Assembly: GCA_016617785.1 (NCBI GenBank)
Contig: JADILM010000009.1
Coordinates: 1,093,482 to 1,157,481 of the forward strand
From: Sporobolomyces roseus
Taxonomy: Eukaryota; Basidiomycota; Microbotryomycetes; Sporidiobolales; Sporidiobolaceae
DNA length: 64,000 nucleotides
Reading direction: 5' to 3'
The position numbers and the translations under genes are program-made. The notes under the pieces were generated by a model. That model worked only from the letters and a program-made list of their open reading frames with translations. It searched no databases and had not been told where the DNA came from. Below, piece after piece: positions 5,773-50,387 of the stretch. The first letter of the stretch is position 1. Every line of letters begins with the position of its first letter.

Positions 5773-6928
5773 CTATAGCGGGGACAACCTCAATCCTCCT
5801 TCTTTCGCTTCTCCGAATGTTTCGATGTCGTGCATCGCAGCGACTCTCCTTGAGATGCGATTGTGAACGAGCGAGTGTTGTTCGCGACGAGGTAGAATGC
5901 TTGAGATAGCCAAGCCGAAGCTGGATTGAGGTGGCGGCTAGCGTCAAGAAAAGACGACGAATTGTCAGTCCTTGATCCATTTAGGCGACGATCCCCGTCA
6001 CTTACAACCAGATCTAGATTGGCAATGAAGGTCTTTGGCGTGTACTTGTCGAGAAGATGTTTGTGGCTGTCACAGAGCTGGAATACCGAACGAATGGTGA
6101 GTTGAATTTGTGATGGTTAGCGGCGAGTTTGCTCACCTGTGCTTTTGTCTCTGAAAGAAAGGTAAGCCTGTCGTAGATCTTCATCCAGTTACCTCGATGC
6201 TTCAAGTTCCATCCGCCTGCACCTGTTGAAAGGTCCGCAATGATTGCGCTGATTGCATTCTTTGCGAGACCTTGCGTTTTGGAATCTTGTTGGTGTTGAG
6301 CGATATAAATCGAATACGGGTGGATTCTTCTCGACCGGTAAGATTGAGGAGACTATTCATCACTCATTGATCAGCATGGCAAAGACCTTCGAATTTTCAA
6401 GAGGCGTCGAAAGGAAACGGACCTCAAGCTTGAGACTCTTGACCAAGTTCTTCGCTCGGTACTCTTTTTGCATCTTGCCTTCTAATGGAATGAGCATCTC
6501 ACCGGGCTGGTGCAGTCCCATGAGTCAGCTCGAGCTCAACAGGAAACACGATGAGAGATGTAAATTACCGTAAGACGAATTAGACCATCCAATTTCTCGA
6601 TCACTTTGAGGGCGTTTGAAGTGATGTAGTAGTTGAAATCAGGGTCCGTCTCTGGTCCTTTCAAGCACTCAATTATCTCCGATTTCCACCTCTTAAGCGT
6701 AGCGATATTGTGAGGATTGTGATGACCAGCGATGATGTGGTCGAGGCGATCAGTAACCTTGTTGCGATTGGTAGTAGCCAGTGCATCTTCGCTCCCCTTG
6801 CGGAAACTGATTCGATCTTGAGTATTATGCCTCGTAAGGTCCAACCCGGTGTATTCTGGCGGTGCCATCCATTCTGGCGACGCTCCGTCGACCTCATACA
6901 CTGGTAATGATGCGCTTTCTAAAGCCAT
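5773..6928 (-). CDS. Accessory Family 1 protein, copy A
   Basis: Function unrecognised. Five exons can be read by comparison with the gene at 39082. Exon 1 starts MALESASLPVYEVDGASPEW and contains LKRWKSEIIECLKGPETDPD. Exon 2 contains PGEMLIPLEGKMQKEYRAKN. Exon 3 begins SPQS and ends with WNLKHRGNWMKIYDRLTF. Exon 4 is LCDSHKHLLDKYTPKTFIAN. Exon 5 ends EAKEGGLRLSPL. Each exon has a counterpart at 39082-40302 in the same order with introns at matching places, which strongly supports a real gene. No signal peptide or membrane segment is evident. The gene is divergent from the Family 2 gene at 8074. The start at 6928 is preferred over the in-frame ATG at 7057, because 7057 lies upstream of the CTAAACCCGAC element shared with relatives. 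Confidence 0.7.
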
Positions 6929-6986
6929 CAGATCAACGAGGAGGAAATGAGGGTAGGAGGTAGACAGATTCTCAATGAGCGAGTCT

Positions 6987-6999
6987 GTCGGGTTTAGGA
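6987..6999 (-). promoter_or_regulatory. CTAAACCCGAC element before Family 1 copy A
   Basis: On the minus strand the sequence TTCCTAAACCCGACAG lies about 60 bases before the predicted start at 6928. It matches elements before the genes at 35394 and 39082. It may be a promoter or transcription-start element of the accessory family. The assignment rests only on shared position and sequence. Confidence 0.5.
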
Positions 7000-7069
7000 A
7001 AAGGTCCGCGCTATTCCGGTCGATCGCCAGCGGTATCTCCGCCCTCTTCTGGGTCATCAGATCAAGTGA

Positions 7070-7790
7070 AGTAGGTAAGGTAGCGAAGCAGCGTCGTAGA
7101 AGATCCGAAGCGAGAGGAGGAAAGGCCCAAAGAGCGTGAGATTGCGATTTTTCCGCTGTCGAAGCTGACTGAGAAGGGCGATGTAGTTTGAGAAGCGTCG
7201 AGCGTTACCGAGTGTCGTAGAAGCATGGTTTGTAGAAGCTTGAGTCAGAGACTACTCGAGAGAGGGTAGTCAGCGAAATCAGGGAACTTTTTCGAAAGGA
7301 ACGGTCCAAATCGATAAACGTACCTTCTCCATCTATCTTCGGCCCCAATAGCAAGAGTCTGAGCTCTCTGATCTACTCCTTCGTTCTCTACACGCTCGAC
7401 TGCCTCTCCATGACTCAGTCTTTCCTGCCCTTTCGATGTTCGCTTTCTCCCAATAACCAGCAAGAGAGACTAGTCAACAGCATGAGCGAGTGGCAAAGTA
7501 GCTTGAAAGAATCGTAGAGTCGTTTTCTGAGTGTAGAGGTACCTTGCGAGAGTGTACATTAGCTCATCAATTCAAAGTCGAGATGGGGAAAGAGAAGAGC
7601 GAGGACTCACCTAAGCGTACTTGTAGCAGCTTCTGGGTTCATCTTGAGTATGTAGCTGGTGATCAAGAGTAAGAATGAGTAGCCAGAGCGGGTGGTCGAA
7701 GTAGGAAAGGTACTCCAAGATCGACTAACTTTGGATCGTCTCTTCACTTGCTACACTTCACTTTCGATCTCGCTTCGGCTACGATGATGC
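7070..7790 (-). repeat. Dispersed accessory repeat, copy A
   Basis: About 720 bases match, in order, segments at 34520-35335 (plus) and 50388-51090 (minus). Shared landmarks on the minus strand are: a stretch ending in GCTACAAGTACGCTTAG followed by donor GTGAGTCCTCGC; an acceptor CTCTCGCAAG; a block encoding GVDQRAQTLAIGAEDRW; a second donor GTACGT; acceptor CTCTCGAGTAG; and a block containing ATGCTTCTACGACACTCGG. Intron-like parts are conserved as well as exon-like parts, which points to DNA-level duplication. Frames are interrupted between blocks, so it could be a decayed coding gene, a spliced non-coding RNA or the spliced leader of the Family 1 gene. Copy A lies directly upstream of the gene starting at 6928. 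Confidence 0.75.
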
Positions 7791-7914
7791 TCTTGATATT
7801 GTTGAAATTTCTAGAGGCTGCTGTAAGCCTACTGGAAATGCTCTGGCTCACCCTGAATCCGTCCCCTCATCTCGCTTCTGATTTCATCGCGGTATATGAG
7901 CTAACGCCTCGCCA

Positions 7915-7927
7915 TCTAATCCCGACG
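7915..7927 (+). promoter_or_regulatory. CTAATCCCGACG element before Family 2 copy G
   Basis: This is a one-base variant of the CTAAACCCGACG element found before Family 1 genes. It lies about 150 bases before the predicted start at 8074. It may be a shared promoter element of the accessory islands. Confidence 0.35.
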
Positions 7928-8073
7928 CTTCTAGCCCACTTCCGAACTCTTGCTATGTTCGTACGGATGTCGGCCTTTCCCCTGAATTCGACGTGCTCCT
8001 CTTCTGCCTGGTCTCTTTTCTCTCTTCCCTTCTCCCGTGTCTTCTTCCTCCCGTTCGTTCCGCAACGGAAGCA

Positions 8074-8799
8074 ATGGCTTTCGGCGATATGAGACCTACC
8101 TCCAGTCAGTCAGAAGGACGGATCGAGGGGAGCTTATCCCGAAGCCTCACAACTAGACCAGGCGGTGGGCAAGACGTACTGACACCAGCATTGTCTTACC
8201 AAATAGCACAACAGCTACTCGGTACGCTAGCTCCTCGCTATCTCGTATGATTCGCTGATATTGCCAGCGATTTCCTGAGCAGGTCGATAACCTCCGTACA
8301 GACGAGCAGAAATTCCGTGACGGCATTCATCAAGTCGCTCCTCGTCTCATGTACGGTCCCCCCTCTCCAGCAAGCAGCGCCATAGCAAGAATCATAAATT
8401 ATCACTTAGAGCACGGAATGGATCACTTGAGGGTGAGCTTTCTATTGCGCTCTCGATTATTGCGCTCACTAAATGGTATGGCTTTTACTACAGACCGTTT
8501 CGTATCGAGATCATCCAATGGACCATTGCGATTCGATTTTCTTCGAATTCGTTCCCGACACTTGGCGTTTCTTTAATCCCGTCTTCAAATCAGGGAAACA
8601 CTCATGGACAGAGGAACTCGAACTCGTAGCTACAAAGATGTACAAGGTCGCGCCTGGCAACGAGTGGTTGACCGGTAGTCAGATCAAGGAACAACAGTGC
8701 AAAGCTGCCGGTTACGAGCAACGCTCAATCGGTCACCGACTCTTTGCTACGCACGGAATTCATCGTCAGGATTGGATTGAGGGATATGAGCGTACTTGA
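8074..8799 (+). CDS. Accessory Family 2 protein, copy G
   Basis: Function unrecognised. The readable exons are an N-terminal block starting MAFGDMRPTSSQSEGR, a middle block with LRTDEQKFRDGIHQVAPRL, and a last exon with DSIFFEFVPDTWRFFNPVF, TGSQIKEQQCKAAGYEQ and the end GIHRQDWIEGYERT. The FFEFVP block, the TG...EQ block and the intron directly before TVSYRD (after HLR) match the gene at 36858-37689, where the same intron follows NLR. The exon junction near 8220-8280 does not join cleanly with two exons. By analogy with the relative, a micro-exon is probably missing from my model. The gene is head-to-head with the Family 1 gene at 5773-6928 and converges on the CCCH gene at 9045. Confidence 0.6.
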
Positions 8800-9044: not shown

Positions 9045-10748
9045 TCAAACCCTCGAAGAATGAGGCATAGCCTTCTCCTTGAACTTGCAAGTCGTTCCCC
9101 AAGGACAACCTTTGATCGTGAAAGGGCATCGATGACCTTGAATACAATTCGCATCTCCCTTCTTGCATTTTCCTCGACTAGCATCCATACAAACTGTCGA
9201 TTTGACCCAGAGTGGGAACAAGTCTCGTTCTTTTGCGGTGAAAGGGAAATTGTGAGAGAAGCGACAGGACTGAGCGGTTTGAGGACATCCGGTGGAAGAG
9301 CAGTAGTGTCGTTTGCAAGGTTGAGTGTTTGAGCGGAATGAGAGGAACGGAGTCTGGAAGGCTGGAAGCGAGGAGACGAGCCCTTGAGGAGTCTTCGAGA
9401 TCGTCTCGACGTTTGCGGGTGCAGCACGAGATGCCTGTGGCCAGAGAGAAGTGAGCGAAGTGAAGAAAAGGAAAGTGAGGTCTTACCGTTGAACGAGGTA
9501 CCTTCTTCTCAGCTTGACGCGAAGGAGGAGTCGAGGTCATGTGAGGGGGAGGGATATCTGCTTGTGGAGGCGAGGGAGGAGTCGAAGGAGGCACGAAAGG
9601 GATCATCGCGGTCGAGTACTCGGCATCGAGAACCTCTGCGAAATCTTCCTGAGCATAGTCGAGTTCGATAAAAGGCGGAGAAGGTGCGCGAGGAAGAGGA
9701 GTCGATGATGAAGGTTGCGGAGAAGGAGAATGATAGGCGAATTGCTGTGACGAAGGGTTGTCTGCCTCTTCCTGAAGCTTCGATGTTCGTTCAGTAAACG
9801 TCTTCCGAGCTGAGAAGAAAGCGAAGACTCACATCGGAAGGAGCATCCCAAATCAATCCTGAAGCGATTGGCGAATGACGAGAAGTCGAAGCGACAATTG
9901 GATCTTCCTCGCTCGCAAAACTTTGGTGAACCCAATTTTGAACCTTCCTTTCCTCGATCTCACCAGTTCCTCCCTCTTCCTCGAACTGTCCCATATCCCA
10001 AATCCTCGCTGCTACTTCTGGCGAGAGTAATCCTCCGAACAAGTCTTCGAATTCCCTTGAAGTTTTGAACCATCCTTCGCTCGAAAGGTGACGATACGAA
10101 GGAGCGATGGTGACGGTACTGAGGAAAGTGATCTTGAGTTTGAGATCGATAGGAAGAGATAGGAGGTAGGGATAGAGGTCGTTATTGTGCAGAGAAGCGA
10201 GAAAGACGCAGGAGGTCGAAGAGAGGGGAAGATACAATTCGAGGAGTTCTACAAGGAGCTGCGATCAGTTCTAGCTTCATACAGAGTAGAAGAGATGACT
10301 CACGCTTGATGCGAGAACCCGAGGGAATCGGTTCGACGACGTAACAATTGTTCTCAGTCGTTGCGAAACCTGACAAGAACGAGTCGACTCTACGTTGAGG
10401 GATTGAGAGGGATTCCTTCCTGTCACTGAGAGGATTCTTACCGGCCAGTCAGGTTTTGTTACGTGAACTGAGGAGCAAAGATCGAACTCACGCGACTAGG
10501 TAAACAACGAGAGATGAAGAAGTTGGAATCCCTGATCTAACGAGACTCGCTTTGACTCGATGGTAGAGGTGTGTAGCTGCTTGTTGACCCCCTTGTTCCC
10601 CATCAGCGATCAAAGAAGCGTTGAACTGTTTGAAGGGAGTGGGGGAAATAAGGTGAGTTGATTAGAGGACGAGCGAGAGAGGAGAGGGATTGGAACTCAC
10701 CTGATCACCTTCTGCATTGAGCAGTACTACTGATAGTGAGTCGCTCAT
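9045..10748 (-). CDS. CCCH zinc-finger protein, paralog 1
   Basis: A multi-exon gene starting MSDSLSVVLLNAEGDQ. The N-terminal part (FNASLIADGEQGGQQAATHL, then SLVVYLVADRKESLSIPQ) resembles the NYN-like domain found before CCCH fingers in other fungal proteins; this assignment is tentative. A middle block begins YLPLSSTSCVFLASL. The C-terminus has two clear fingers with spacings C-x9-C-x6-C-x3-H and C-x7-C-x6-C-x3-H, separated by FPLWVKSTVCMD, plus a possible third (CPWGTTCKF). It ends KAMPHSSRV. CCCH fingers usually bind RNA. The gene at 30922 is a full-length paralog with matching exons. The 3' end faces the accessory gene at 8074. Confidence 0.8.
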
Positions 10749-16793: not shown

Positions 16794-19296
16794 ATGGGTA
16801 TCTGTACTTCATGCTGCCGAGGTACGTTGTCTCTTTACCTCTCTCGAAATGAGCCGAGATTCTAAAGTTTCAATCTGACTCGTTCTGGTTAAACTTACAC
16901 CTCACTTCCAGGCGGTCGTTCGCATGCTGGATACGAACCATTGTTATTAGAGAATGAACGGGAAGCAGTCGCTGAACTATTACAATACTTGGAGAGTCAG
17001 TCCCGCTTTCTTCTCGTCCTTCTCCTTCTCCTCTCTCCCCCTCATTTCCTGCATCTTCCCCATCACTACTCTTACTCTCACTAGGCTCAAGCTTGCTAGA
17101 ACGGACCGTACTGATAATTTGCTGAGTGTGAGTAGATCGAGCCGAAACCAACTTTTTCACCGGAGAACCTTTGAGAGCGTTATCGACTTTATCCTACTCT
17201 GAAAATGTCGACCTCCAAAGATCTGCCGCTCTAGCCTTTGCCGAAATCACTGAAAAGGTAAAAACCAACCATGTTCTTTTCTCATCTGCTCTTGATTCAA
17301 AAACGAGACTGATGAAATGAGCACTGGTTGTTTGAAACAGGACGTACGAGAAGTTTCAAGGGAAACTTTGGAACCCATTTTGTTTTTACTCAATTCTCAT
17401 GATGTAGAAGTACAAAGAGCCGCTTCTGCTGCACTCGGAAATTTGGGTGTGAATGGTGAGCTCTCCTTTTCTTTTCTCCATTTTCGAGAGGATTCTCGTT
17501 AATGGAAAGGAAAGGGTTGCCTGCAGCTGAGAACAAATTGACGATTGTTAAATTGGGTGGACTCGAACCTTTGATTCGACAAATGTTGAGTCCCAACGTC
17601 GAGGTACAATGTAATGCGGTTGGATGTATCACGAACCTCGCTACTCACGGTACGGAATCTGTCTCTCTCTTCATCACTCTTTCCAAAATCGGGACTGATG
17701 GGAGTGAGAGCATTGCCCGCAGATGAGAACAAACCTAGGATCGCCAAGAGTGGTGCTTTGGTTCCTCTCACTCGATTGGCGAAATCAAAAGATATGAGAG
17801 TTCAACGAAACGCTACTGGTGCTTTACTCAACATGACTCACTCTGGTACGTTTCTCTCCTCCTCTCACTTCCCTCCTCTACTCAAAGCGCCTGTTTTTAG
17901 ATGAGAACCGACAACAATTAGTCAACGCTGGAGCGATCCCAGTTCTCGTCGCACTCCTCGCTTCCCCCGATACAGACGTTCAATACTACTGTACTACTGC
18001 ACTCTCGAATATCGCAGTCGACGGAAACAATCGAAAGAAGTTACAAACGAGTGAACCTAAATTAGTGGTCAATTTGATCGGGTTGATGGATAGTCCTAGT
18101 TTGAAAGTTCAATGTCAAGCTGCTTTGGCTCTCCGAAATCTCGCTTCTGACGGTACGTCCTCGTATCTCCTCATTTCCCTCCAATCCGAGGCTGATGATC
18201 CAGTATCGAGAGTCTACAGAAAAATATCAATTAGAAATCGTCAAGAATGGAGGACTCCCCGCTCTCCTTCGACTCCTCCGATCCTCATTCCTTCCCCTCG
18301 TCCTCTCGGCAGCCGCTTGCGTTCGAAATGTCTCGATCCACCCATTGAACGAATCACCAATAATCGAATCTGGTTTCCTCGGACCTTTGATCGATCTCCT
18401 CGCTTACGACGAGAATGAAGAGATTCAATGTCATGCGATCTCAACTTTGAGGAACCTTGCCGCGTCGAGTGAAGGGAACAAGAGGGCGATTGTTGATGCG
18501 GGAGCGGCGGAAAGGATTAGGGATTTGGTTTTGGGTGTACCGGTTTCCGTTCAAAGTGAGATGACCGCTTGTGCTGCTGTATTGGGTCTGTCGGGTACGT
18601 CGGGAATCGAGTTCATTCTCTTTCAAGATCGAACTGACTGAGCTCCACTCTCTTCCCCCGAGTACAGAGGACATCAAGACTGAATTACTCGACATGGGGA
18701 TCTGCGACGTTCTCATTCCTCTCACCAACTCGCCTTCTGTCGAAGTCCAAGGAAACTCTGCAGCAGCAATCGGTAACCTCTCCTCAAAAAGTGAGTTCCT
18801 CTTCTTTCCTCTCAGCCCAATCAACCCAGAGTGCTGAAGAAGAAAGGTGGATATTACAGCGGATGATTACACTGCGTTCTCGAACGTATGGTCGGAACCC
18901 GAAGGAGGTTTACATGGATACTTGGTGAGGTTTTTGGAGAGTTCAGATACTACTTTCCAACATATCGCGATTTGGACTATGGTACAACTTCTCGAATCGG
19001 GTGGTACGTCGATCTGCTATCTTCAATCGACTCTACAATAGCTGATTGTTTGCCATGTTCGACGCACAGATCCAACTCTCGAAAACCACATTCGACAATC
19101 GCCTCACCTCTTACCTCTCGCACACAAACTCGCTTCGACTCCTCTATCTGAGAAATCGGCGAGCTCGATTCATTCTGGAAACGAAGGGAGTGAGAACGGG
19201 GATGGAGAAGATGGGATGGGAGATGGAGGAGAGAGAGAAATTGTTGAATTGGCGAGAACGGTTTTGGAGTTATTGGACGTTGAGCACAAGGAGTAA
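16794..19296 (+). CDS. VAC8: Vacuolar armadillo-repeat protein Vac8
   Basis: Exon 1 (16794-16821) encodes MGICTSCCR. This is an N-myristoylation glycine followed by palmitoylation cysteines, as in yeast Vac8. Exon 2 begins at 16912 with [12 protein letters not shown]. The rest, split by several short introns, is a run of about eleven armadillo repeats. Recognisable units include [64 protein letters not shown] and [14 protein letters not shown]. It ends [16 protein letters not shown]. Vac8 sits on the vacuole membrane and serves vacuole inheritance, fusion, nucleus-vacuole junctions and selective autophagy. The acidic, Gly-rich stretch near the C-terminus is low complexity. The lipidation motif at the first codons fixes the start. 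Confidence 0.92.
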
Positions 19297-23927: not shown

Positions 23928-24191
23928 CTCAGGTGATATGTATATTGATGTAGAGTGTGTCGGAAGCCTAAGGAGAGTAATCGAGAGGTGTAGTGAAGTG
24001 CAGCAAGTCAAGCGAGATTAGGGATTCGTTCCTCTCCTTGCTCCGGTTCACCACTTAGCTTGCTCTGCTACTTGGGTCCGCTACTCAGGTCAACTCTACA
24101 GGCAGTTCAGGATCCGATCAACACGACAAGGAACGCGTCCTCCCTCCCCTTTCTCTTCCAACCCCACCTTCCGGTTCTCTCCCCCTCAACA

Positions 24192-27328: not shown

Positions 27329-29729
27329 TTACTGCCTACTCCCCTGTCTACTCATACTCAAACTACTCCCCCTCCTCTCCTTCCTCTCCTCGTTCAATCT
27401 CTTCCTTTCTTTCTCTTTCTCCTCCTGTTTCCCAACCCATCTCTCCAACCTCCCCCTCTCGACTCGCGCGATGAAATAATTCCCTCCCTCCATTTTCCAA
27501 CTCACTGAACCGGGTTTGTATTGTTGTTTCACTTGAGAGAGGTAGGCTAAGGGATGGTTGAGATTGTGCGAAGAGAGTTTGAAGGAGGGTGGAAGGAAGG
27601 GTTTGAGAGAGACGAGGAAACAATTGTCTGGGAGGTCGAGGAATAGGTAGGCGAGTTTATCATTCAACGCTGCAGTAAATCTGTACGCTCACAAAACGCT
27701 TCTATCAGCTAATGTTTGGGGGAGAGGGTAGTGTGTGATCTGAAACGTACACTTCGTTATTAACTAAAACTACATCCGCTTTCTTCAATACCTTTGGCAC
27801 CAAGCTATCCTCACAAAAATCGCTCTCATGACATTCCATCTCCCCTCCACTGATGCCCCAAAGCCTGAACCTTTTCTCAGCCTCGATCAATTGATTCCTA
27901 GCTAAATGTGAAGCATGAGGCATATTCTCAAATCCATAACTTTTCGCTCCCGTTCTGTATTTCGCCCTCGTCATCACATCAGCCAAGTCCTAACCCGAGA
28001 TGAAGTAAAGAGAAACCTACGCTAAAGCAGCTTGAACCACGCAATTCCCAACTCCACTTCCCAAATCAACGAATACTTTCCCTTCCCCTGACAAAGCTCC
28101 ATCAGTCTTTGCAAAAATTTCATTCATAAACCTCGGTAAAAGTTCCCCATAAACATTATCTGAGAAAGCAGCGTATTTCCTCAATTCCTCAATGTCGGGA
28201 CCAACGATTCGATCATAACATTGATAAAAAATCTTGGTCCATAACTTTTCTCTCAAACCTCGCATCGATTGAATGTTGGAAAGGATTAGACCGGATGATT
28301 TGAGGGAGGAGAGGGTACGGTTGAAGTGAGCGATGTGGGAGAAAAATGTGGGCCCATCCCGTCTGTTGCGGGCTTTTTCGAGCGCTCGTAAGAGGGGCTC
28401 GGCGACTATTATGGGAGGTGCAGAGGAGGAGGTGGTAGAGGTGGAAAGAATTATTGACGGTTCGGGCGTAGAGAGTTTGGGAGTTGAGATGTGATTGATT
28501 GCCGGTGAAGAAGAGCGGGAGGAAGAGGAGGAGGAAGGATTGGCGGTGGAGGAGGAGTGGGAGTGGGAGAGAGGCTTGAGGAAGGACGAGAAGGAAGAGA
28601 AGGAGGAACCGGGAGTGTATCCGAAATGCTCGAGGGATTGAGAGGGGGTGAGGTAATTTGCTAAGATCGTTTCAATAGTCTGTGAAAACGAAGAGATCAC
28701 ATCAGCTTGGAGATATCGAGGATACAAGACAGCGCCACTCACGACCATCAGATCCTCTATCGGGTTATATTCATCATTTCGTTTCGGAGCTAAAAGTGCG
28801 AATCTGTACAACGAAGGTCTCGTTCGACAGTCAGCCACGAGGGGACAATCTGTAGTAGAACAATGTCATCGACTTACCTTTCTTTCCCTCCTATCGCAGG
28901 ATATTCTAATTCAATAACCGGCAAGTCACAACCACACCAATCCATCGCCTTCGCATCCGGATTTGCAGGATCCGCAAAGACTGCGACGTCAACGATGACC
29001 GCCTCTACTCAGTACGATATCCTATACGAGTAGTAGAAGGGACGCAAACTCACAATTCAAGATATAAGCGTCCAAATTCCCCCTCACAACCTCTTCCGAA
29101 CTGACTACCTTCATATCCCCTCCCTCCTCTTTCGCCGCAACCTCCCTCACGCAAACTGCCGCACCTTCCGCTACTCTCGCTCTTCCCAATTTACCACTAA
29201 AATAATCCTCATCCGCCGATGAAAGAGATGAACTCGATTCATAACCTCCTCCTCCTTCCCCTCCCGATAAGGACGATAACGAAGATGAAGAATGTGAATG
29301 TCTGAGTTTCGATCGTTTTGGTGCTCGGGAAGTAGGTTTAGAGGGTTTGCGAGAGGTTGAAGGAGAGTCTGATTCTTCGGAAGATGATGAAGAGGTTGAA
29401 GCGATTGGTCGTGTTTTTGATTTCTTGCCATTCCCATTCAAAGCTTTCCCTTTGCCTTTGCCATTGAGTTCTAGTTTCTTCACTACTGGTCGAACAGGAG
29501 GTGGTCGAGGTAAAGGTTTAGGAATTTGTTTGATGACTGTCTTTTGTATTACTTTGGTTTGGATTACGGGTCTAGCTCGTACTTGAGTCTTGATACGATC
29601 GCTCAAGGTCGAAGTGGTCGTTGTAGTTGTTGTTGTTGAGGTGGGTAGAGAGGAAGTTAGATTTGAAGTGGAGGGTTTACTAATCGATGAACCTGGTGAT
29701 TTCGGAGGTGCCCGCCGATTCGTAAACAT
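27329..29729 (-). CDS. DOT1: Histone H3-K79 methyltransferase Dot1
   Basis: The C-terminal half is a Dot1 methyltransferase domain. The SAM-binding loop is VFVDLGSGVGNCVVQAALA. It is followed by a conserved block around AKSYGFENMPHASHLARNQL, the motif ADVVLVNNEVY and LFLDLPDNCFLVSLKPFLPP. Upstream of the loop are the expected helices (YGELLPRFMNEIFAKTDGAL). The N-terminal half is a basic, Ser-rich extension starting MFTNRRAPPKSPGSSISKPS, consistent with the nucleosome-binding extension of fungal Dot1. The short tail after the catalytic domain is Lys/Glu/Arg-rich. Dot1 methylates nucleosomal H3 Lys79 and acts in silencing and the DNA-damage checkpoint. It is divergent from the SERF gene across about 130 bases. 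Confidence 0.92.
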
Positions 29730-29862: not shown

Positions 29863-30341
29863 ATGGCGCGTAAGTCTATCTTTAGAGCTCTATCATCTAC
29901 GCTGGCTAATTATTGCGCGTTCATAGGTGGTAATCAACGAGATGCTGTAAATCTTCCCTGGTCCGTCTCTCAACCTCTGTTTCTCGCTTACCTTTGATTA
30001 TGATTGTTCTGCGAGATAGGCTAGGGAGAAGGTAAGCTTATACTCTCGACATGAGAGCCAGCGTGAGTGATGAAAGTTGACTGATCAAACGTTTTTCGCA
30101 AAAACAGAACCAAAAGAAGTTGGCGCAACAGGCTAAAGGACAGAAGACAGAGTCGGGAGCGTCATTGAAGGCTAGACAGCACGAGGATGCTGAAAAGATG
30201 CGTCAGAAACAGGTGAGTGGTTCGTGTCTAAAGTCAAGAAAGAAAGAGAACCTGATCCCCTCTCTCATTCATTGTTGATAGGCAGCTGCTTTGGCCAAGA
30301 AGGAAGCGGAAGCTGCGGCTGGAGCTGCAGTCAAGAAGTAG
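29863..30341 (+). CDS. SERF (4F5) family small basic protein
   Basis: Five exons with very small coding pieces are needed: 29863-29869 (7 bases), 29927-29946 (20 bases), 30020-30031 (12 bases), 30108-30212 and 30282-30341. Joined, they read MARGNQRDAAREKNQKK, then LAQQAKGQKTESGASLKARQ, and end EAEAAAGAAVKK, about 67 residues. This matches the SERF pattern (M-x-RGNQR--AR-KN-KK) along its whole length. A longer reading of exon 2 through AATCTTCCCTG fits the family less well, so the GTAAAT donor is preferred. SERF proteins are disordered and lysine-rich, and are known as modifiers of protein aggregation and RNA-binding chaperone-like factors. A decayed partial copy lies at 32911-33056. Confidence 0.85.
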
Positions 30342-30921
30342 AACACTTTCCTTGTCATCCTTTACCTCAAAACACCTTAATTATCCTATCTTTCGACTTT
30401 TCTCTTTCGCATCTTCAACTTCCCTTCGACCTACCTATTTTTGCTTTCGTATACAATCGACTCACATCGCAATAGACTTCTCTCACTCGGATCAATCGGT
30501 CCCATGAGGCGGCAGGAGGACGAGAGCATCGGAAGGAGGATTGAGGGAATGAGGGACCAAACAAAATCGACGCGATTGACGAGACGCCTATGACGAGGAC
30601 GGACGAGCCTATGTCGAATCGACGATGGGAGAAGACCAAAACGCTGACAGGGAAGGGACAGGTCGACGTAATCGAGTGCTTTCGCTGATCAAAGTGAAAA
30701 TCCACTACGAAACCTTTTAAACGTCAACGCGGATCAACCGGACCTAGCGAATTCTCTCTCTCTGAACTCCACCATATCTGTAGCATAACTTTCCAGAGAC
30801 TATGAAGAAAGTGATCGCTCGCTCCTCTTTTTTTTGCCCAACTTTTTCCAACTTCCTCTCTCTCTCTCTCTCTCTCTCCCTCTTCTCTCTCCCCTTCCCT
30901 TCAACCTTCAGCTGACAGTGG
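30342..30921. other. Intergenic interval with CT microsatellite
   Basis: This holds the 3' end of the SERF gene and the promoter of the CCCH paralog. The plus strand contains a CT run of about 23 bases at 30856-30878, inside a longer pyrimidine tract just before the start codon. Such tracts are common near fungal transcription starts. The frame on the minus strand (30415-30705) has no domain support. Confidence 0.5.
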
Positions 30922-32657
30922 ATGTCGAATACAGTAGCAGTAGTGTTACTGAACGCAGAAGGTGATCAAGTATGTTATCCCCTCTCTTTGTCCCTTGATC
31001 ATTCAACTCACCACCCTTGTTTTCCCCTATCTAGTTCAATGCGTCTTTGATTGCGGATGGACAATCGGGTGGACAAATCGCTTCAATGTTGTTGTATGAT
31101 CGAATCAAAGCTAGTTTGATCAAGAGGAATATGACTTCTTCAATCCTAGTTTACTTCGTTGCGTTCGTCTTCTTCTCTCTCTCATTCTACCGTCGTAGAG
31201 CTGATGGTACGAATAGAAGCGCACAGTGATCGATTACAATCAGTCTCATTACCCAGGGAGAAATGGGAAGCGTTCCTCTCAGGGTTTGGGAAGACCAAGA
31301 ATCCATGTTTCGTGATCGACCCCCTCGATTCCTCTTCGTCTCTACGTATCACTCGTTGAGTTCCCTCTCTCTCTCTTCTCCCACAGTCAACTCCTAGCTG
31401 ACTCCCCTTTATAGAGCTACTCGATTTGTTCCTCCCGTTGTCCTCAACCGCAACCGTTTATTTAGGTTCTTTAGACACTTCGAAACTTTACCCTTACTTG
31501 ATCACGTTACCTCCACTCAAGAAGAACAAGGTTACGTTGTTGAGTACGATCACTGTCGCCCCGTGCTATAGGACGTTGGAGGAGAAGGGTTGGATCAAAG
31601 TTGAGAGAGGGGTTGAGGGGTTGTTTGGTGAGTTGTTGATGCCGGAAATTGCTGGGAGGTTGTGGAGGGGAGAAGAAGGGGAAGGGGAAGAAGAGGAGGA
31701 GGAAAAGGAGCTAAGGGGAAAGGGGAAAGCGAAGGAGAGCGAGAAGAAGGAAGAGAAGGGAAGAGTCGAATTGGAAGAAGTCTGGAAAGAGACGGAGGAA
31801 AGTCCAGTCACGTCAAACTCGAGACGAGTCATACCATCAGGATTGGTATGGGATGTTGATTCAGATGTGAGTCCTCGTTCGTTGCCCCCTTCGCGAGCGA
31901 AACAAAGCTGAAACCCGAATCTCGTTTTCAGGATGGAAATCGAGATTTCTCGCCGGGAATTAACCACGAAGCGATCCCTGCGATGACTCAACGCAGTACA
32001 CCTCTTCCATTGCCGATTGGAACGCCTCGACAAACTACACCTCCTCAAACGCCTCAACCAACTCGACGTTCTTCCTCGACTCCTTCAGATTGGGAAGATC
32101 GTCTCGACTCTGAAGATTCACCAATCCTCAACTCTCCTCAACCAGAACCTCACATCTCGACGACTTCTACTCCTCCCGCTCCTCCTCAACCTCTCGATTC
32201 GTCCTTCTCTCGCGCCCTCGTTCTCGCTCGTCCACCTCAAACTACTCCCTCTTCCTCAACCGCGCTCATCCATTCCCCCTCTCCACTCGACATAGTGATC
32301 CCTACTCCACTCGGTCCCATCTCTCCCTTACCCCCATTCCCTCAACCCGCCCTCTCCTTCACCCACACTCCCGGACCTTGCAAACTTTTCTATGTCCAGC
32401 CTTCATCCTGTCCGAAATCTTCTCAAACCTGCAAATTCTCCCACACCTATCCCTTCACTCGCCGCGAGTTGGAAATGTTCCCCTTGTGGGTGAAAGGAAC
32501 GATTTGTATTGATCACACGAAGGGGAGGTGTAAGAGGGGAGACAAGGGTTGCAAGTTTGGACATAGGTGTCCTTGGACGATTCATACTTGTCCGTATGGG
32601 AGTACTTGCAAGTTTAGGGAGAAAGGTTTACCTCATTCTTCCAGAGGGGGGAAGTAA
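30922..32657 (+). CDS. CCCH zinc-finger protein, paralog 2
   Basis: Starts MSNTVAVVLLNAEGDQ and matches the gene at 9045-10748 block by block: FNASLIADGQSGGQIASMLL, VYFVADRLQSVSLPREKW, SGFGKTKNPCFVIDPLDS, LPLSSTATVYLGSLDTSKLY, then SGLVWDVDSD. The C-terminal fingers are CKLFYVQPSSCPKSSQTCKF with its His at x3, and CIDHTKGRCKRGDKGCKFGH. It ends LPHSSRGGK. Matching introns include the one after GDQ and the one after VYFVA (donor GTTCGT, acceptor GCACAG). Compared with paralog 1 it has an extra Glu/Lys-rich insert (31660-31800) and a longer Ser/Pro-rich linker before the fingers. An RNA-binding role is inferred from the fingers. Confidence 0.82.
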
Positions 32658-32910: not shown

Positions 32911-33056
32911 ATCGACAAAGTTGAGCTGATCCATCGTCTTTCGCAAAAACAGAACCAAAAGAAGTTGGCGCAACAGGCTAAAGGTCAAAAGACAGAGTTG
33001 GGATCCTCTCTCAAGGCTCGACAGGAGAGTGATGCGAAAAGATGCGCTTGAAGCAG
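32911..33056 (+). pseudogene. Partial duplicate of the SERF gene (end of intron 3 plus exon 4)
   Basis: The sequence TTTCGCAAAAACAG followed by AACCAAAAGAAGTTGGCGCA and onward copies 30091-30212 almost base for base. Part of the preceding intron is recognisable too (CAAAGTTGAGCTGATC against AAAGTTGACTGATC). The copy diverges near the end of exon 4 (AAAAGATGCGCTTGAAGCAG), where a one-base deletion breaks the frame. The 5' exons are absent and the donor after exon 4 is lost (GGCCCT in place of GGTGAGT). Because intron sequence is included, this is a DNA-level duplication and not a retrocopy. It marks the edge of the accessory island. Confidence 0.85.
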
Positions 33057-33281
33057 GCCCTATCCTCTGCCTTCAAGCTTCACCGGATTTCGAAAGTTCC
33101 GGTCGGCTGAGCTTTCACCTGTCCCACTTTGCGTCGAGCTAGGAGTAGCACAACTTCGATTGAGATCCGCATGGAAAGCGGAGGTTTCAAGGGTCAAAGC
33201 GATCCTCGCGCTTCGAGATTACGAGTCTCTTACCGGGATTCTCCTTCTCTCTTCACTTGCTCTGTCTTGATCGATTGTCAG

Positions 33282-34132
33282 ATGCCATCGTTTGCACACG
33301 TTGTGCACCCTGCGGCTAGAACTGCAGAACGATCCCCTGTTGGTTCCCAACATCAATGCGAAGCTACAAATCGAAGACTCGAGGAAATCATCGAAATGGC
33401 GAAAGCTGCTTGGTCGTCGCCTAGCCCTGCTGTACGTAATAGCTATTCGCGAATCGAGGCCCAGACTGATGTGTACGTCCCCCGCCCTAGACCAAGGAGC
33501 ATCGATATTTCGAGTATCGTAAACACCCTCAGTTTGACAGATTTTTCCATTTCAAGCACGAAAGCATGTTCATCGACGCTGTACTACAATAACACCACTT
33601 TGCAACTTTTAGTACATCGGTATCCAGATCCGGAAGCCGAGTGGCTATATCGGACTGAGTTGAGGCTCCTCGACCCTGGAAACATAATCGAAGCTCACCC
33701 CGACAGCCATGTAAGATGACCAGCTTCTCGTCTGTGTGAGGAACCTGTTCAATTTGTCTTCGTTCGACAGTGGCACAACTTCCTCGACCTCGGTGAATAC
33801 TTTGTGACTGAGGATGCTAGAGGTCATCGATATTCTCATCGATGTTTCGACGGATCAGTGAAACAAATTTGCGATATTCCCGATCCTTACTTGTCCCCAG
33901 GCTCTACGCGTGAAACTACAAAGCTCGATATCTACCTCTCCAAAGAGAGTACCGCATTTTCAGTTCGTCTACGCCATTTCTCTCCTTTGACCGCACGAGT
34001 TGTAACTGATAGAGTAACAAGCCCCATTTCAAGGGTTACTTCACTGCTCCGGGAAGCTCTCACAACGCATTGAGTTTGCGGAAAGCCAGGATGTACGGAT
34101 TGCACCGCAGCCAGTTCGAGGATGGATTCTGA
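33282..34132 (+). CDS. Accessory Family 2 protein, copy F (divergent)
   Basis: Function unrecognised. The first part reads MPSFAHVVHPAARTAERSP and continues to NIIEAHPDSH. After an intron (donor GTAAGATGACC, acceptor TTCGACAG) comes HNFLDLGEYFVTEDARGH with VKQICDIPDPYLSPG. A further intron near 33946-34020 leads to HFKGYFTAPGSSHNALSL and the end RKARMYGLHRSQFEDGF. The C-terminus resembles GIHRQDWIEGYERT of the gene at 8074. The LGEYFVT...DIPDP stretch resembles TGHFFLVT...EIPDQ at 36858-37689. These similarities are modest, and splice sites are partly guessed. It follows the SERF fragment and is in tandem with the Family 1 gene at 35394. Confidence 0.45.
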
Positions 34133-34519
34133 AACCTGTCGCAGTCTTCCTCTCCTACTTCTTATTGTTGCCGGTCCCCTCCATGGTCTCCCCCCTTCTT
34201 TATCAGTGCTCCTCTTCAATCAGTGACCTGCCCACCTCTTTATAGCTCGATCTTGACCTCTCTTTGATTCCGAGCGTTTGTTTGAGTAGTAGAAAACCGC
34301 GAGCTCGACTTCAACCCCTCGGCTCCCTTGCAGGCGACTGCTAATCAGCTCGGGCGATATTCGACGAGTGACTGAGTGAACTTACGAGAGGCAGGATGCT
34401 TGCACATGATCTTGCGAGAGACTTGAAGATTGCGAGATGGGAAAGAGTCGAGAGAAAGCAGGAGACACGAATCTGAGCCAGCCGAGTATTAGAGCGGCTC
34501 ATTTCCGCGACCAAGAGCC
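34133..34519. other. Intergenic interval
   Basis: This lies between the 3' end of the gene at 33282 and the start of the dispersed repeat copy B. I see no coding signal, RNA gene or repeat here. Confidence 0.4.
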
Positions 34520-35335
34520 CCATCGTAGCCAAAGCGAGATCGAAAGTGAAGTGTACGGAGTCAAGAGACGATTCGAAAGTTGCTCGATCTCAACGACTCT
34601 CTTACTTCCACCACTCGCTCTGACAACTCAGTCTCGCTCTCGATCAGCCAAGATACATCTCAAATCAACCTGAAGGCTGCTACAAGTACGCTTAGGTGAG
34701 TCCTCGCTCTTCTCTTTCCCCATCTCGACTCTGAATCGATGAGCTAATCTACACTCTCGCAAGGTACCTCTAGACTCTACGGACGCCTCTCTAGCTCCTT
34801 CAAGCTACTCTACTATCCGCGCATGCCCTCGACAAGCCTCTATCGCTCGTGATTGTGGGAAAGTGAACATTGAAAGGGAGGAAAAACAGAGTGACGGAGA
34901 GGGAGTTAAGCATGTAGTGAGCAAGGGAGTAGATCTGAGAGCTCAGATTCATGTTACTGTGGCCGAAGATAGAATGGAAAAGGTACGTTATGGACTTGAA
35001 CCGCTTCTTTTGAAGGACTTCATTGATTTCGCTGACTTGACACTCTCTCTCGAGTAGTTCTTGAATGGAGCCTCTACGACCATGCTTCTACGACACTCGG
35101 TAACGCTCGATGTACTCGACCTACCTCAACAGTCGGGTTCTGCTTCGGAATCGGAAAGACAGCGACCTCAGACTCTTCGAACGATCCATTTCTCCTCTCG
35201 CTCTGGATCTACCACGACGCTGCATCGCTACCTCCCTGCTTCGCTTATTCGGACTGAGTTGGAAGAAGCGGAGACACGGCCGACGATCGACCGGAACTGC
35301 GCGGTCCTTTTCCTAAACCCGTTCGCTACCTAAAC
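34520..35335 (+). repeat. Dispersed accessory repeat, copy B
   Basis: This matches 7070-7790 and 50388-51090 (both minus) along its length. The block from about 35060 to 35230, containing GCTCGATGTACTCGACCTAC and onward, is nearly identical to copy C. The intron-like block after GTACGCTTAG (GTGAGTCCTCGC...) is nearly identical to copy A. Exon-like parts read GVDLRAQIHVTVAEDRMEK, then LNGASTTMLLRHSVTLDVLD. The final part, near RPTIDRNCAVLFLNP, is shared with the leader of the gene at 5773-6928. The shared end runs into the CTAAACCC elements and stops shortly before the start codon at 35394. It may be a promoter-plus-leader unit of Family 1 genes or an element inserted there. Confidence 0.75.
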
Positions 35336-35340
35336 CCGAC
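35311..35340 (+). promoter_or_regulatory. Two CTAAACCCG elements before Family 1 copy B
   Basis: Two copies lie in tandem (TTCCTAAACCCGTTCGC and TACCTAAACCCGACG), 54-83 bases before ATG 35394. The second extends into CCCGACGTTTCC, as at 38995-39010. The shared position suggests a promoter or start-site element. Confidence 0.5.
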
Positions 35341-35393: not shown

Positions 35394-36547
35394 ATGTCAC
35401 AGCAACCTCAGCTCAAACGAAAGCAATCTCACCAAGCGCCCGCTCCCGGACCCGCCTCAACCGCTCTCGAACCGACGAATTCGCCTGCTTTGAGTTCGAA
35501 ACAGCGCATGGTGCTCGCTCAAGCCACTAGCGGTGCTGACCAACGTGTTCGCCAAGATCACGTCACTGCTTGGAAAGTAGAACTCGATCAGATCAACCGC
35601 GAGCTTGAAGGTATCGTTGCCCAATGTCGCAAAAATGGAGAATCTCAAGAAAGGTTAAGAAAGTGGTCAAACGATTACTCTCAGTTCATCAGAAGGACGA
35701 GTATGAGCAAGCACTCTTTCGAAGGTTTCGAGAAGCATCTTGCTTTGGTGAGAAGGTGGGTCAGTTCGGGAGAAAGGGTGAGTATTCCCCTTCGTCCCTT
35801 GCTTTGACATCTAATGAAGACGCTGACATGGAGTATCTTACAGCTCACTGGATACATCTACGGCTTCAACGACAAGTTCCTGCCGCAAATTGAGCTAGAT
35901 GCGAAACAGAGTCTCAAGGAAAATCAACCTCTCTTCTTCAACTGTATCAGTGATTGACAATTTTTCATGTCTACAGACTTCAGGCGAAATCTGGTTCAGT
36001 GAATTATTCAACATTTGGAATTATGATATCGAGCTTCGCTTGCCGCAAACCGACTCGCGGCAAGCACTTACTCATCTTGCGAAGCTGAGGGAGATCATTC
36101 TTCCTCAGTCACGCAAGCCCCGGAAGGAACGGCTTCAGTGGGTCAATGGAGTGTCCCGAAACGAATGGCTTCAAAAGTACCACGAAGTCCTCATCATTAA
36201 AGAGCTTGTTCGTGCGAAAGCGCCGGTGCGTCGCCATTCATCTCTCTCGCATTGTTCTCCGCAACACACTCTCTGATCAATCCTCTTCCATGCCTAGCAG
36301 GTCATCATCAACGGCAAAGTGTCTGCTCTCTTTGCCCTCGCTGCAACCGTAGAGCGATTGAGAGAATGGAGCGTACTTTTGACCTTTTCGCTTGCTTCTC
36401 TCCCTGATTGCCTCACTTGCTGCCTTTGTTTCCTTTTGAACTGACTCTCTGTTCAATCTCTAGCCTCCTGAAGACATCCAAGTACAGCTCGGCAAATCTA
36501 GATTCCACGCGGTCGGAAGAAGGGAAAATTCGAATACTACTTTCTGA
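35394..36547 (+). CDS. Accessory Family 1 protein, copy B (divergent)
   Basis: Function unrecognised. The start MSQQPQLKRKQSHQAPAPGP is Gln/Pro-rich with a basic KRK. Exon 1 also carries HVTAWKVELDQINRELEGIV, which resembles the RWKRELLELL region at 39082. The later exons read TSGEIWFSELFNIWNYDIEL, then VSRNEWLQKYHEVLIIKELV, then VIINGKVSALFALAATVERL, then PPEDIQVQLGKSRFHAVGRR, and stop at 36545. The intron just before VIINGK and the next one before PPEDIQ sit where copies A and D have theirs. This copy lacks the SPL ending of the others, and homology in the first half is weak. Splice choices near 35640-35780 are uncertain. Confidence 0.55.
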
Positions 36548-36857: not shown

Positions 36858-37689
36858 TCAGATCCTCCTACTTTGAGCGACAAAAGCACTATGACTCCTT
36901 CCAATCTTACTCGTAGAGTGATGACTGATGGAGTGTTGATGCCCAACAAAGTTTGCTAACCTCCTCTGCTCCTGAAGCATCTCTCTCCCAGTGACTTGAC
37001 GATGTCTTCCGACAGGATGACCTTGGTCCGGTATCTCCTGAATATCATAGAGCGTGTTGTCATTTGCGAAGGGCAATTCCTCGAGGTGTCCGTGATACGT
37101 GACCAGGAAGAAGTGACCGGTTCGAGGAACGTATTCATAGTACAGTGGATGTAGAATGTCGTCCGTTGTGTGAGGGGTAGCAGTCTGTAGAGATCAGAAG
37201 CTAAGTCAGCTCAGTCCGTGACGACGGTGTAAGAGAAACGAGAGCTGGCCCACCCTCAAATTGGCAGGAAGGGCTCCGAGGCGATGAACAACCTCTCCAA
37301 GAGCCAAGATTGCGTCTACATTGTGATGTAAGTCAGACGGATCTTCCTCATGGATTGCTCGTCGGAAGGCTTCCTCTATTGATCGATTCGCAGCCTGGCT
37401 CAACTCATGCGCGAGTTCAGCTTGTCGTTCGCGCTCTCTGATATCTGGATGCTGTAGTGCGGTGCGTGAGGTCAGTGCATGCTCGAGTCTGCTGAGCTTC
37501 TGCCTCGACTGACCTCGTTACGCATTGCCTGCGAAATCTCAGACAAACATCACCGATCGCAAATCTGGATTCGGGAAGGGGAAGACTTACCTGGAGCTGT
37601 TGCTCAGTGGTATGACCCAGCATACCTAGATCAGCTCGATATTGATCATTCGGAGCAGAGTGCTCATCGTCTCCGGTAGCGTGAGGCAT
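36858..37689 (-). CDS. Accessory Family 2 protein, copy E
   Basis: Function unrecognised. Exon 1 is MPHATGDDEHSAPNDQYRAD to TTEQQLQ. A 15-base micro-exon (AMRNE) follows. Exon 3 is HPDIRERERQAELAHELSQA to GALPANLR. Exon 4 is TATPHTTDDILHPLYYEYVP, then RTGHFFLVTYHGHLEELPFA, DIQEIPDQGHPVG, then VTGREMLQEQRR. It then reads on through LANFVGHQHSIS to stop at 36858, or splices near there. The YYEYVP block, the TG...EQ block and the intron between LR and TA match the gene at 8074, which has FFEFVP, TG...EQ and LR/TV. It is head-to-head with the Family 1 gene at 39082, mirroring the pair at 5773-8799. Confidence 0.6.
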
Positions 37690-37809: not shown

Positions 37810-37820
37810 GCGGGTTTAGA
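37810..37820 (-). promoter_or_regulatory. CTAAACCCG element before Family 2 copy E
   Basis: On the minus strand GAGTCTAAACCCGCTTTC lies about 125 bases before ATG 37689. It shares CTAAACCCG with the elements before the Family 1 genes. Confidence 0.4.
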
Positions 37821-38993: not shown

Positions 38994-39009
38994 CTCTAAA
39001 CCCGACGTT
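38994..39009 (+). promoter_or_regulatory. CTAAACCCGACG element before Family 1 copy D
   Basis: CCTCTAAACCCGACGTTCCC lies about 75-90 bases before ATG 39082. It matches the second element before 35394 over CTAAACCCGACGTT. A shorter relative, TTCTAAACCG, lies at 38951. Confidence 0.5.
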
Positions 39010-39081: not shown

Positions 39082-40302
39082 ATGGATCGCAACACGTCAC
39101 AAGAAACTCTGACCCCTCTCTTGCCAGCTGCGACATCCGATCAAGTCGAAACACTCTCAGAAGCTGCCCTGAAACGTATCAAAGATCGCAGAGATGCAGA
39201 GACTCGAACCGGAGAACGAAACTACAACGAGATCGCAGCGTATATCGAGGAGAGTTTCATCAGTCACTACACAAAGCACGAGGACCAAGCAATCTTGATT
39301 CGTTGGAAAAGGGAGTTATTGGAATTGCTACATTTACCTTTACCCTACGATCCCATGTATAACTTCCAATGGTCCAACTCGAATGTTGTCAGGGACTCTC
39401 TTCACGAGCTGAGACGTCGCCTCAGAGATCACGTAAGGACTTCCGATTACTTTCACGTTTCATTGCCCATGTCGCTGAAGTCGTCTGTGTTTAACAGAAG
39501 TGGCGCGCCACTGTCTTCAGTCAGGATGGTTCATTCTCAGCGGGAAAGTGCTACAAGGAAATGAGCAAGAAATTCATCGTAAGCTTTTGAGTTTTATCCC
39601 TCATTCGAAGAGATCCCCCTTTTCTTCACAAGCCTGTCGTTGTTGCTGATTAATCGCGCTCTCGCTCACAGTCGCCCGAAGATGCTAATTATCAACAAAT
39701 AGCAAACACCTTGAACCGTTTCACTGACGGAAACACCATCTTGGATCATTACGAGAAATCCGATCACAAGCAAGTAAAGAAGATCATCCAAAGTCTCGCC
39801 GACTACTTGTACAAATCTAATTGGTATCTCAAGCACCCCGACAATTGGGCAAGGATTTGGGAAGAATTTATTCAGCTCAAACAAGGAAACGTGAGAGTAA
39901 GCTCGCATCACCTTACTCTCGAGTTTGACTATCGACTCTCAAATTGACCGACTCATTCTGATCGCTCTGGATACAGCTCATTGATTGTAATGGAAGGAGT
40001 TGCACTATTTGCAAACCCGAAGAATTCGTCAAATCTTTGCATCTCATTGTACGTCCTTCCCCTCCGAAGTGCGACTTCCCTAAGACTCGGAACCTGTCAA
40101 TACTGATCTCTCGCTTACCTTCACGACACATCAGCCAAACCCAAACCCCAGCGCTCTACGTCGTTTCACGACTTTTGCTCCGGGTAGTGATCACTTCGAG
40201 TCCCTTCAACACCATCGAGTCTCGGGGAGGTACGCTTTGATCAGCGGTGTATGCACTTATGGATCAGCAGAGTTGGGAGGTCAGAGTTTGGTACCTTTGT
40301 AG
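39082..40302 (+). CDS. Accessory Family 1 protein, copy D
   Basis: Function unrecognised; this is the best-preserved member. Exon 1 starts MDRNTSQETLTPLLPAATSD and includes AILIRWKRELLELLHLPLP and ends RRRLRDH. Exon 2 is KWRATVFSQDGSFSAGKCYK to KKFI. Exon 3 begins SPEDANYQQIANTLNRFTDG and contains SNWYLKHPDNWARIWEEF. Exon 4 is LIDCNGRSCTICKPEEFVKS. Exon 5 carries FESLQHHRVSGRYALISGV and ends GGQSLVPL. Each exon aligns with one in the gene at 5773-6928, and the last aligns with the relic at 50206. The NW/W-W pattern in exon 3 is the strongest shared signature. No signal peptide, membrane segment or known catalytic motif is visible. It is divergent from the Family 2 gene at 37689. Confidence 0.72.
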
Positions 40303-50205: not shown

Positions 50206-50360
50206 CTACAATGGAGAGAACCTGACTCCACCCAACCGAGCAGGTCCACAAGTTTGCAATCCGCTGATCAGAGCATAACGACTCGTAACCCGGTGATGTT
50301 CGAAGGAATGCTCTGGACGAGCAGGACGCCGACGACTCGTCAGTCGCGAAAGCTTTGAAG
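50206..50360 (-). pseudogene. Relic of a Family 1 gene: last exon only
   Basis: On the minus strand an open stretch reads FEHHRVTSRYALISGLQTCG, then PARLGGVRFSPL and stop at 50206. It matches the last exon of the gene at 39082 (LQHHRVSGRYALISGVCTYG, then GGQSLVPL) and more weakly the one at 5773 (HNRISRR, ending GGLRLSPL). No counterpart of exons 1-4 lies between it and the dispersed repeat copy C, which abuts it upstream. The body of the gene therefore appears to have been deleted. Confidence 0.75.
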
Positions 50361-50387
50361 GAGGGTTTGGATCAGGCTGTTAAAGGA

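Follow-up and report, generated by a model that had tools for sequence, protein, structure and literature searches.

A probable subtelomeric cluster of two fast-diversifying gene families in Sporobolomyces roseus

Introduction

The window, as it is called here, is the terminal 64 kb of contig C9 (1,157,481 bases) of the Sporobolomyces roseus genome and contains two pairs of unrecognised genes that are transcribed away from each other. An earlier note on this DNA described the same two families, Family 1 and Family 2, in both pairs and suggested that their products work together or need shared regulation. The question is therefore whether this locus holds a two-gene unit that was duplicated as such, or something else. 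Based on the analysis of the DNA, it was concluded that the window is probably part of a cluster of two families, termed alpha and beta, which would represent a new, subtelomeric and fast-diversifying gene family. The genome comprised 22.4 Mb in 15 contigs (C1 to C15).

Results

Homology within and between the families

The gene models were assembled manually on the basis of open frames and splice signals, and each was then checked from ATG to stop. The two divergent pairs, F1A/F2A and F2B/F1B, were found where the earlier note had placed them; all models were open from ATG to stop, and the five coding sequences of the window were all multi-exon. The F1A gene had its ATG at 6928 and its stop at 5773, and the intron 6353-6422 with a weak donor was the least certain part of it. 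The F1B gene consisted of five exons, and every intron was in phase 0.

A spliced protein-to-DNA aligner was written for this analysis. When F1B was used as the sole query, F1A was recovered with five exons at a score of 176, compared to a maximum of 46 in 12 shuffled stretches; the shuffle maximum across all seven queries of that run was 57. The homology within both families, as claimed earlier, was far beyond chance, with scores of 174 for F1A and F1B (maximum of 12 in 200 codon shuffles per pair) and 53 for F2A and F2B (maximum of 6). The correspondence of introns, also claimed earlier, held at four positions of F1A and F1B in the alignment of F1B on F1A, the reverse alignment shifting the start of exon 2; in F2A and F2B only the last intron was clearly in common. 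The fourth exon was 72 bases long in both F1A and F1B.

The F1p_r5 gene had the Family 1 layout and a 72-base exon (36301-36372), yet its pairwise similarity was not significant (32 with F1B on its own strand and 35 with F1A). Profile comparison united the two branches (P 9e-5, probability 59, 204 columns), and the 72-base exon was present in 11 aligned alpha genes. On these two grounds Family 1 and the F1p_r5 branch are one superfamily, alpha. A comparison of the short and long beta profiles (P 8e-5, probability 62, 46 columns) likewise indicates that Family 2 is the short form of a longer family (X_r5, P0004, P0006 and P0009), and the two together are referred to as the superfamily beta. The profile of one family retrieved seven proteins, and the named ones were all Sporobolomyces hypothetical proteins of the long beta family (P0004 and P0006 of S. 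roseus JCM5353 and P0009 of S. pararoseus JCM3765); this protein search depends on shared short words and cannot prove that a family is absent from other fungi. With regard to variation between strains, near relatives were represented by protein fragments only (P0001, P0002, P0005, P0007 and P0010). No match was obtained between the alpha and beta profiles (P 0.57 and 0.35), and the two families appear to be unrelated to each other. A short C-terminal motif of the SL.HR type seemed, by eye only, to be common to both, and the approximate last exon of X_r5 ended in an SLRKARMYG motif.

Location at contig ends

In addition to those on C9, protein searches detected alpha members on C1, C4, C6, C7, C8, C10, C11 and C12; beta members were detected on C1, and a match on C3 at E 0.12 was excluded from the locus count. 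After merging matches within 20 kb, nine of the 18 loci were situated less than 20 kb from a contig end, against an expected fraction of 0.022 (P 4e-11), and the excess persisted when C9 was excluded (8 of 15 loci, P 3e-10). The 12 large contigs have 24 ends, and repeats of TTAGGG were present at seven of them (C2R, C4R, C5R, C6L, C6R, C10R and C12R), the C10R cap consisting of two units only. Family members were found near four of these capped ends, at 6.0 kb (C4R), 12.9 kb (C6L), 15.6 kb (C10R) and 12.3 kb (C12R). The family at the chromosome ends is thus probably subtelomeric. Three small contigs, C13-C15 (24-72 kb), had a mitochondrial or organellar look by eye.

The leader

Comparison of the window with itself revealed a repeat of 0.7-0.8 kb in three copies (r4, r5 and r6), here called the leader. 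It was called non-coding, a conserved open reading frame (ORF) having been sought by eye only. With a single copy as the query, six genome copies were found, all on C9 and inside 141 kb, and each of them preceded an alpha gene or remnant of the same orientation (in the case of r3, 1 kb separated it from the first exon detected). The profile of the six leaders detected four partial copies at the C8 start (E 5e-22 to 6e-9), three of which preceded a detected alpha gene. The C8 copies, used as queries, led to C1:13.5 kb, C1:4,735 kb, C4:2,122 kb and C11:884 kb. An alpha match lay 1.2-1.5 kb downstream of the C1 right and C4 right leaders on the same strand, and at the C11 leader the known alpha gene was on the wrong side. 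In total, 11 of the 14 copies, which ranged from 0.3 to 0.8 kb in length, had an alpha gene, remnant or match downstream on their strand (the C1 left flank was outside this check).

The nucleotide identity of the leaders was 57-80% (15 pairs), versus 43-48% at the aligned codons of six leader-bearing gene pairs, two of which (r4-r5 and r6-r5) were non-significant alignments. A donor-like GTGAGT was kept in nine of ten aligned copies, and since it was kept, splicing is suggested; the leader is probably spliced. One explanation of these properties is that the leader itself is the functional unit, a subtelomeric gene for a spliced non-coding RNA that carries the ORFs along. Such a gene would fit a leader that is the best conserved part, retains GTGAGT and recurs at another five contig ends. 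We consider it quite improbable, as the leaders mostly stand upstream of alpha genes on the same strand, the ORFs retain a structure of their own, F1B persists without a leader, and no Rfam match was found in the window at gathering thresholds. No transfer RNA was found in the window either.

The relationships of the leaders and of the genes disagree in these alignments. Approximately 150 columns of r5 and r6 were 98-100% identical, compared to 66-86% in most other 50-column core windows, yet the two head members of different alpha branches, r5 a gene and r6 a remnant, F1C, whose nearest relative is the leaderless F1B. Because the two leaders are nearly identical and nevertheless lead different branches, ectopic gene conversion and exchange would explain the discord best.

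The CTAAACCCG motif

The motif CTAAACCCG occurred five times in the window, while 0.23 occurrences were expected. All five were located 55-121 bases upstream of the ATGs of F1A, F1B, F2B and F1p_r5 (two copies) on the gene strand, and none was found ahead of F2A. Ten copies were present in 177 kb of C9, and each was followed in the same orientation by a family gene or fragment, although several are homologous via the leader and the ten are not independent events. For eight of them the distance to the gene, or to the first of its exons that aligned, was about 0.25 kb or less; of the other two, one preceded the r3 gene, with 0.9 kb to the first exon detected, and one preceded a beta fragment at a distance of 0.5 kb. 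When a slightly looser pattern was applied to eight stretches outside C9, four matches were obtained, two of them ahead of alpha genes (L027 and L028). A 14-base version of the motif gave 11 matches genome-wide, compared to three for the reversed control, and four of the 11 fell in the C9 cluster. The 14-base matches away from known members (C1:675485, C2:73946, C4:99338, C6:422127, C8:657983 and C9:489374) may mark unknown members or have arisen by chance. The shared regulation that had been proposed gains support from the motif before F1A, F1B, F2B and F1p_r5, not before F2A.

Arrangement of alpha and beta genes

The C9 contig was scanned from 980 kb to its end (177 kb) in 20 gaps of more than 700 bases between confident predicted genes (75.6 kb). 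Twenty family queries were used, the short pieces F1_r6 and F1p_r2 being left out, and matches of at least 60 were kept (maximum of 49 in 200 shuffles). With a score of 59, a beta-like piece found at 1,027.8 kb was under this cut-off. After merging adjacent pieces, the cluster comprised 12 alpha and eight beta places. An alpha gene was situated within 3 kb of seven beta places, in two cases through weak alpha matches (71 and 63), and only two of these seven pairs, those of the earlier note, were divergent, the other five being tandem. Five of the 12 alpha places had no beta gene within 3 kb.

Outside C9, seven alpha loci and one beta locus were scanned in stretches of 3-10 kb at a cut-off of 58 without a shuffle control. 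No beta match was detected at any of the seven alpha loci, and no alpha match at the beta locus; a remote or diverged partner could escape such a scan. The count leaves out seven alpha matches (C1:347 kb, C1:4.73 Mb, C4:2.12 Mb, C7:1.52 Mb and three on C10), known from the protein search alone (E 4e-6 to 0.007), and two beta matches, likewise known from the search alone.

An obligate two-gene module, such as a toxin-antidote system, a self/non-self pair or a paired regulator, would require alpha and beta to stay linked. The proximity of alpha genes to nearly all beta places on C9 and the presence of CTAAACCCG ahead of both F1B and F2B are in line with it. The unpaired alpha places on C9, the scarcity of divergent pairs and the separate occurrence of the families elsewhere argue against it, and we regard the module as unlikely. 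A joint function of the products in an obligate divergent pair was accordingly not borne out, and among the loci scanned the co-occurrence of the families as divergent neighbours was observed within the C9 cluster only, the families also occurring independently outside it; in part, this is the outcome that the earlier note had named as counting against its reading. Each divergent pair would rather be a local arrangement of alpha and beta genes, and the recurring element appears to be an alpha gene, often with a leader, at contig ends, which beta accompanies in the C9 cluster.

Segmental duplication

The F2A gene was flanked by a predicted gene with a DUF7923 domain and tandem CCCH zinc fingers, and a paralogue flanked the second leader block. 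The two genes are inverted paralogues, with amino acid identities of 51% and 33% in two pieces, and by this similarity they mark a segmental duplication. Because the CCCH gene and the leader are common to both, it is the region of 30.9-36.5 kb that corresponds to the F1A/F2A block at the DNA level, and not the F2B/F1B pair, which had been taken for the duplicate of that block. The third Family 1 copy that had been counted, close to F1B, proved to be a fragment of the last exon only, F1C. The CCCH paralogue was itself flanked by a direct duplication of 143 bases, 85% identical (30073-30213 and 32917-33057). The coordinates are collected in Table 1.

Table 1. Features of the window and their positions
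Feature	Position	Strand	Exons and remarks
F1A, alpha gene	5773-6928	minus	6569-6928, 6423-6506, 6137-6352, 6006-6077, 5773-5937; 298 amino acids
Leader r4	6989-7795	minus (sense)	stops 60 bases short of the F1A ATG; contains CTAAACCCG at 6989-6997
F2A, beta gene	8074-8799	plus	8074-8221, 8284-8432, 8494-8799; 200 amino acids
DUF7923 and tandem CCCH zinc-finger gene (predicted)	9045-10748	minus	flanks F2A
CCCH paralogue	30873-32657 (ends approximate)	plus	flanks the second leader block
X_r5, long-type beta gene	33282-34132 (about)	plus	aligned exons 33282-33710, 33771-33962; last exon approximate
Leader r5	34512-35321	plus (sense)	precedes F1p_r5
CTAAACCCG, two copies	35313-35321, 35330-35338	plus	before the F1p_r5 ATG
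F1p_r5, alpha gene, second branch	35394-36547	plus	35394-35777, 35899-36225, 36301-36372, 36464-36547; first exon boundary approximate
F2B, beta gene	36858-37689	minus	37591-37689, 37514-37528, 37254-37451, 36858-37184; 212 amino acids
CTAAACCCG	37811-37819	minus	121 bases before the F2B ATG
CTAAACCCG	38996-39004	plus	77 bases before the F1B ATG
F1B, alpha gene	39082-40302	plus	39082-39432, 39498-39578, 39672-39896, 39977-40048, 40135-40302; 298 amino acids
F1C, alpha remnant	50209-50376	minus	last exon only; 51% amino acid identity to F1B there
Leader r6	50385-51083	minus (sense)	adjoins F1C

Core genes were interspersed in the cluster according to Pfam, namely armadillo repeats (17837-18418), DOT1 (28017-28865), WD40 repeats (43527-44117) and a Myb DNA-binding domain (46958-47578).

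Protein features

None of the five window proteins had a hydrophobic N-terminus (19-residue mean near the start at most 0.34), and the highest mean anywhere was 1.58, in F1p_r5, the usual membrane cut-off being 1.6. No Pfam domain over the cut-off was found in eight family proteins (F1B, F2A, F2B, three beta relatives and two alpha proteins; F1A, F1p_r5 and X_r5 themselves were not in this set), with Sigma70_ner (E 0.006) as the best match below threshold. No HET, NACHT or NB-ARC domain was present in these eight, HET genes elsewhere in the genome being outside the search. The family queries A1, A2 and A3 had no sequence relatives among solved structures (best E 0.61, 0.2 and 0.12, respectively). 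The matches of A4 to designed repeat proteins (E 1e-11, 4e-9 and 0.01) covered 24-27 residues, no stretch of which passed alone, and were rejected as a repeat artefact. A mating-type locus with an HD1/HD2 pair was also rejected: no homeobox was found in the eight proteins, and the sole Homeobox_KN match was on C8 and STE3 on C11.

The absence of Pfam domains also bears on an origin of the family genes from transposons, by which they would have spread. Their multi-copy, dispersed occurrence and a fragment resembling a retroelement polyprotein at the C8 start (1-150, by eye) would agree with such an origin. Several introns stand at corresponding places, however, and the position of the leader relative to the gene is fixed in most copies. 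The inverted repeats, sought in three window stretches without a chance control, were short and imperfect (18-38 bases, 71-89%), and none bounded the units. A transposon origin was considered highly improbable.

Selection on the coding sequences

The ratio of nonsynonymous to synonymous differences (pN/pS) was compared with that of codon-shuffled pairs, which averaged 0.70-0.77, as the measure is biased by the alignment. Values of 0.64 for F1A-F1B (3 of 200 shuffles as low), 0.58 for the last exon of F1B-F1C (6), 0.55 for F2B-F2_56 (5) and 0.56 for X_r1-X_r2 (1) were obtained. The least diverged pair, that of C4, had a value of 0.23, which was reached by none of the 200 shuffles, over 33 codons. 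Fisher tests of pS over pN gave values below 0.005 in all 11 pairs; owing to the bias, the shuffle control of seven pairs was relied on instead. Purifying selection on the family genes is likely, with modest support from these comparisons. The synonymous differences were near saturation in most pairs.

It was also considered that the frames are decaying relics or over-read intergenic DNA, that is, functionless remnants of duplicated genes. The gene finder passed over the family genes of the window, and their codon bias was between -0.067 and -0.002 per codon, similar to the background, compared to 0.100-0.273 in 38 ordinary genes of the region, which were also the training set of the model. 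Remnants do occur: F1C is a clear one, and the second copy on C4 was found in pieces only. In decaying DNA, the five multi-exon models would hardly have stayed intact despite the near-saturated synonymous differences in most pairs, nor would the introns correspond and the C4 pair show so low a pN/pS. Relatives are moreover annotated in two Sporobolomyces species. We judged the relic explanation improbable.

Discussion

It was concluded that the window probably belongs to an alpha/beta cluster, a new gene family that is subtelomeric and diversifies fast. The coding parts of the alpha genes have diverged so far that hardly any pairwise similarity is left, and the reading frames and the 72-base exon were kept. 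We proposed that copies may spread through subtelomeric and segmental duplication, and that ectopic gene conversion would keep the leaders alike, so that differing coding bodies can end up behind similar leaders. The leader with CTAAACCCG could act as a shared promoter and 5' untranslated region, the transcription of the leader being inferred; if it does, the genes are therefore probably co-regulated.

Several observations weigh against this conclusion, in addition to the background-like codon bias, the bias of pN/pS and the non-significant gene pairs in the leader comparison. Regarding location, six of the 18 loci were more than 200 kb from any contig end, three of the seven capped ends had no detected member, the C9 end carried no telomere repeat, and the C9 cluster extended 155 kb inward from that end. 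Regarding the upstream elements, no trace of a leader was found before F1B (score of 24, shuffle maximum of 29), and weak partial matches to the leader profile (E 1e-4 to 0.06, C11 included) occurred without an alpha gene in the window at 23972-24082 (E 1e-4) and 63216-63286 (E 0.002). Outside C9, two matches to the looser motif pattern (L026 and L027) fitted no alpha gene, and five stretches had none. Regarding the proteins, pN/pS was not clearly below the shuffles in two of seven pairs, F2A-F2B (0.67, 48 of 200) and one alpha pair (0.65, 27 of 200). Structure prediction returned a helical exon 1 of F1 with a predicted local distance difference test (pLDDT) score of 73 and a poor model of one beta relative (pLDDT 46); both were too weak for a fold to be assigned, and neither structure had a match in the PDB at E <= 0.001.

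As to function, we tentatively suggest that the products, which have no hydrophobic N-terminus, might be intracellular and serve in a process where rapid change is an advantage, for example self/non-self recognition or genetic conflict, a suggestion that is possible rather than expected. More doubtful is the wider proposal that alpha and beta would form a red-yeast subtelomeric recognition or conflict system, in which a spliced leader, homogenised among the copies, holds exchangeable coding bodies under common control, so that a free-living yeast would gain a diversifying intracellular repertoire.

Most of what is known about subtelomeric gene nurseries comes from parasites and from a small number of model yeasts. 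The Pneumocystis MSG genes are a subtelomeric, hypervariable family with a conserved upstream sequence. The alpha and beta genes resemble them as a multigene family at chromosome ends with conserved 5' sequence, diverging bodies and gene conversion. They differ in that their products have no hydrophobic N-terminus, many alpha genes have a leader of their own, and no single expression site is known. The Candida TLO genes and the fission yeast wtf drivers are likewise expanded, fast-evolving yeast families; the likeness is one of description, and the eight alpha and beta proteins had no Pfam match over the cut-off.

In Neurospora, a published study reports that lineage-specific genes aggregate near telomeres with HET-domain genes (PMC10684091). 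These genes are similar to the present ones as lineage-specific proteins of a fungus with few or no known domains, clustered by telomeres; alpha and beta are distinguished as two expanded families, one with a common leader and motif, in a different phylum. No paper on such families in Sporobolomyces was among those that the literature searches listed.

The alpha/beta cluster is thus a candidate subtelomeric gene nursery in the red-yeast lineage, in which a non-coding leader is far better conserved than the proteins behind it. The discord between the histories of leader and gene would offer a testable case of gene conversion and promoter sharing shaping new gene families.

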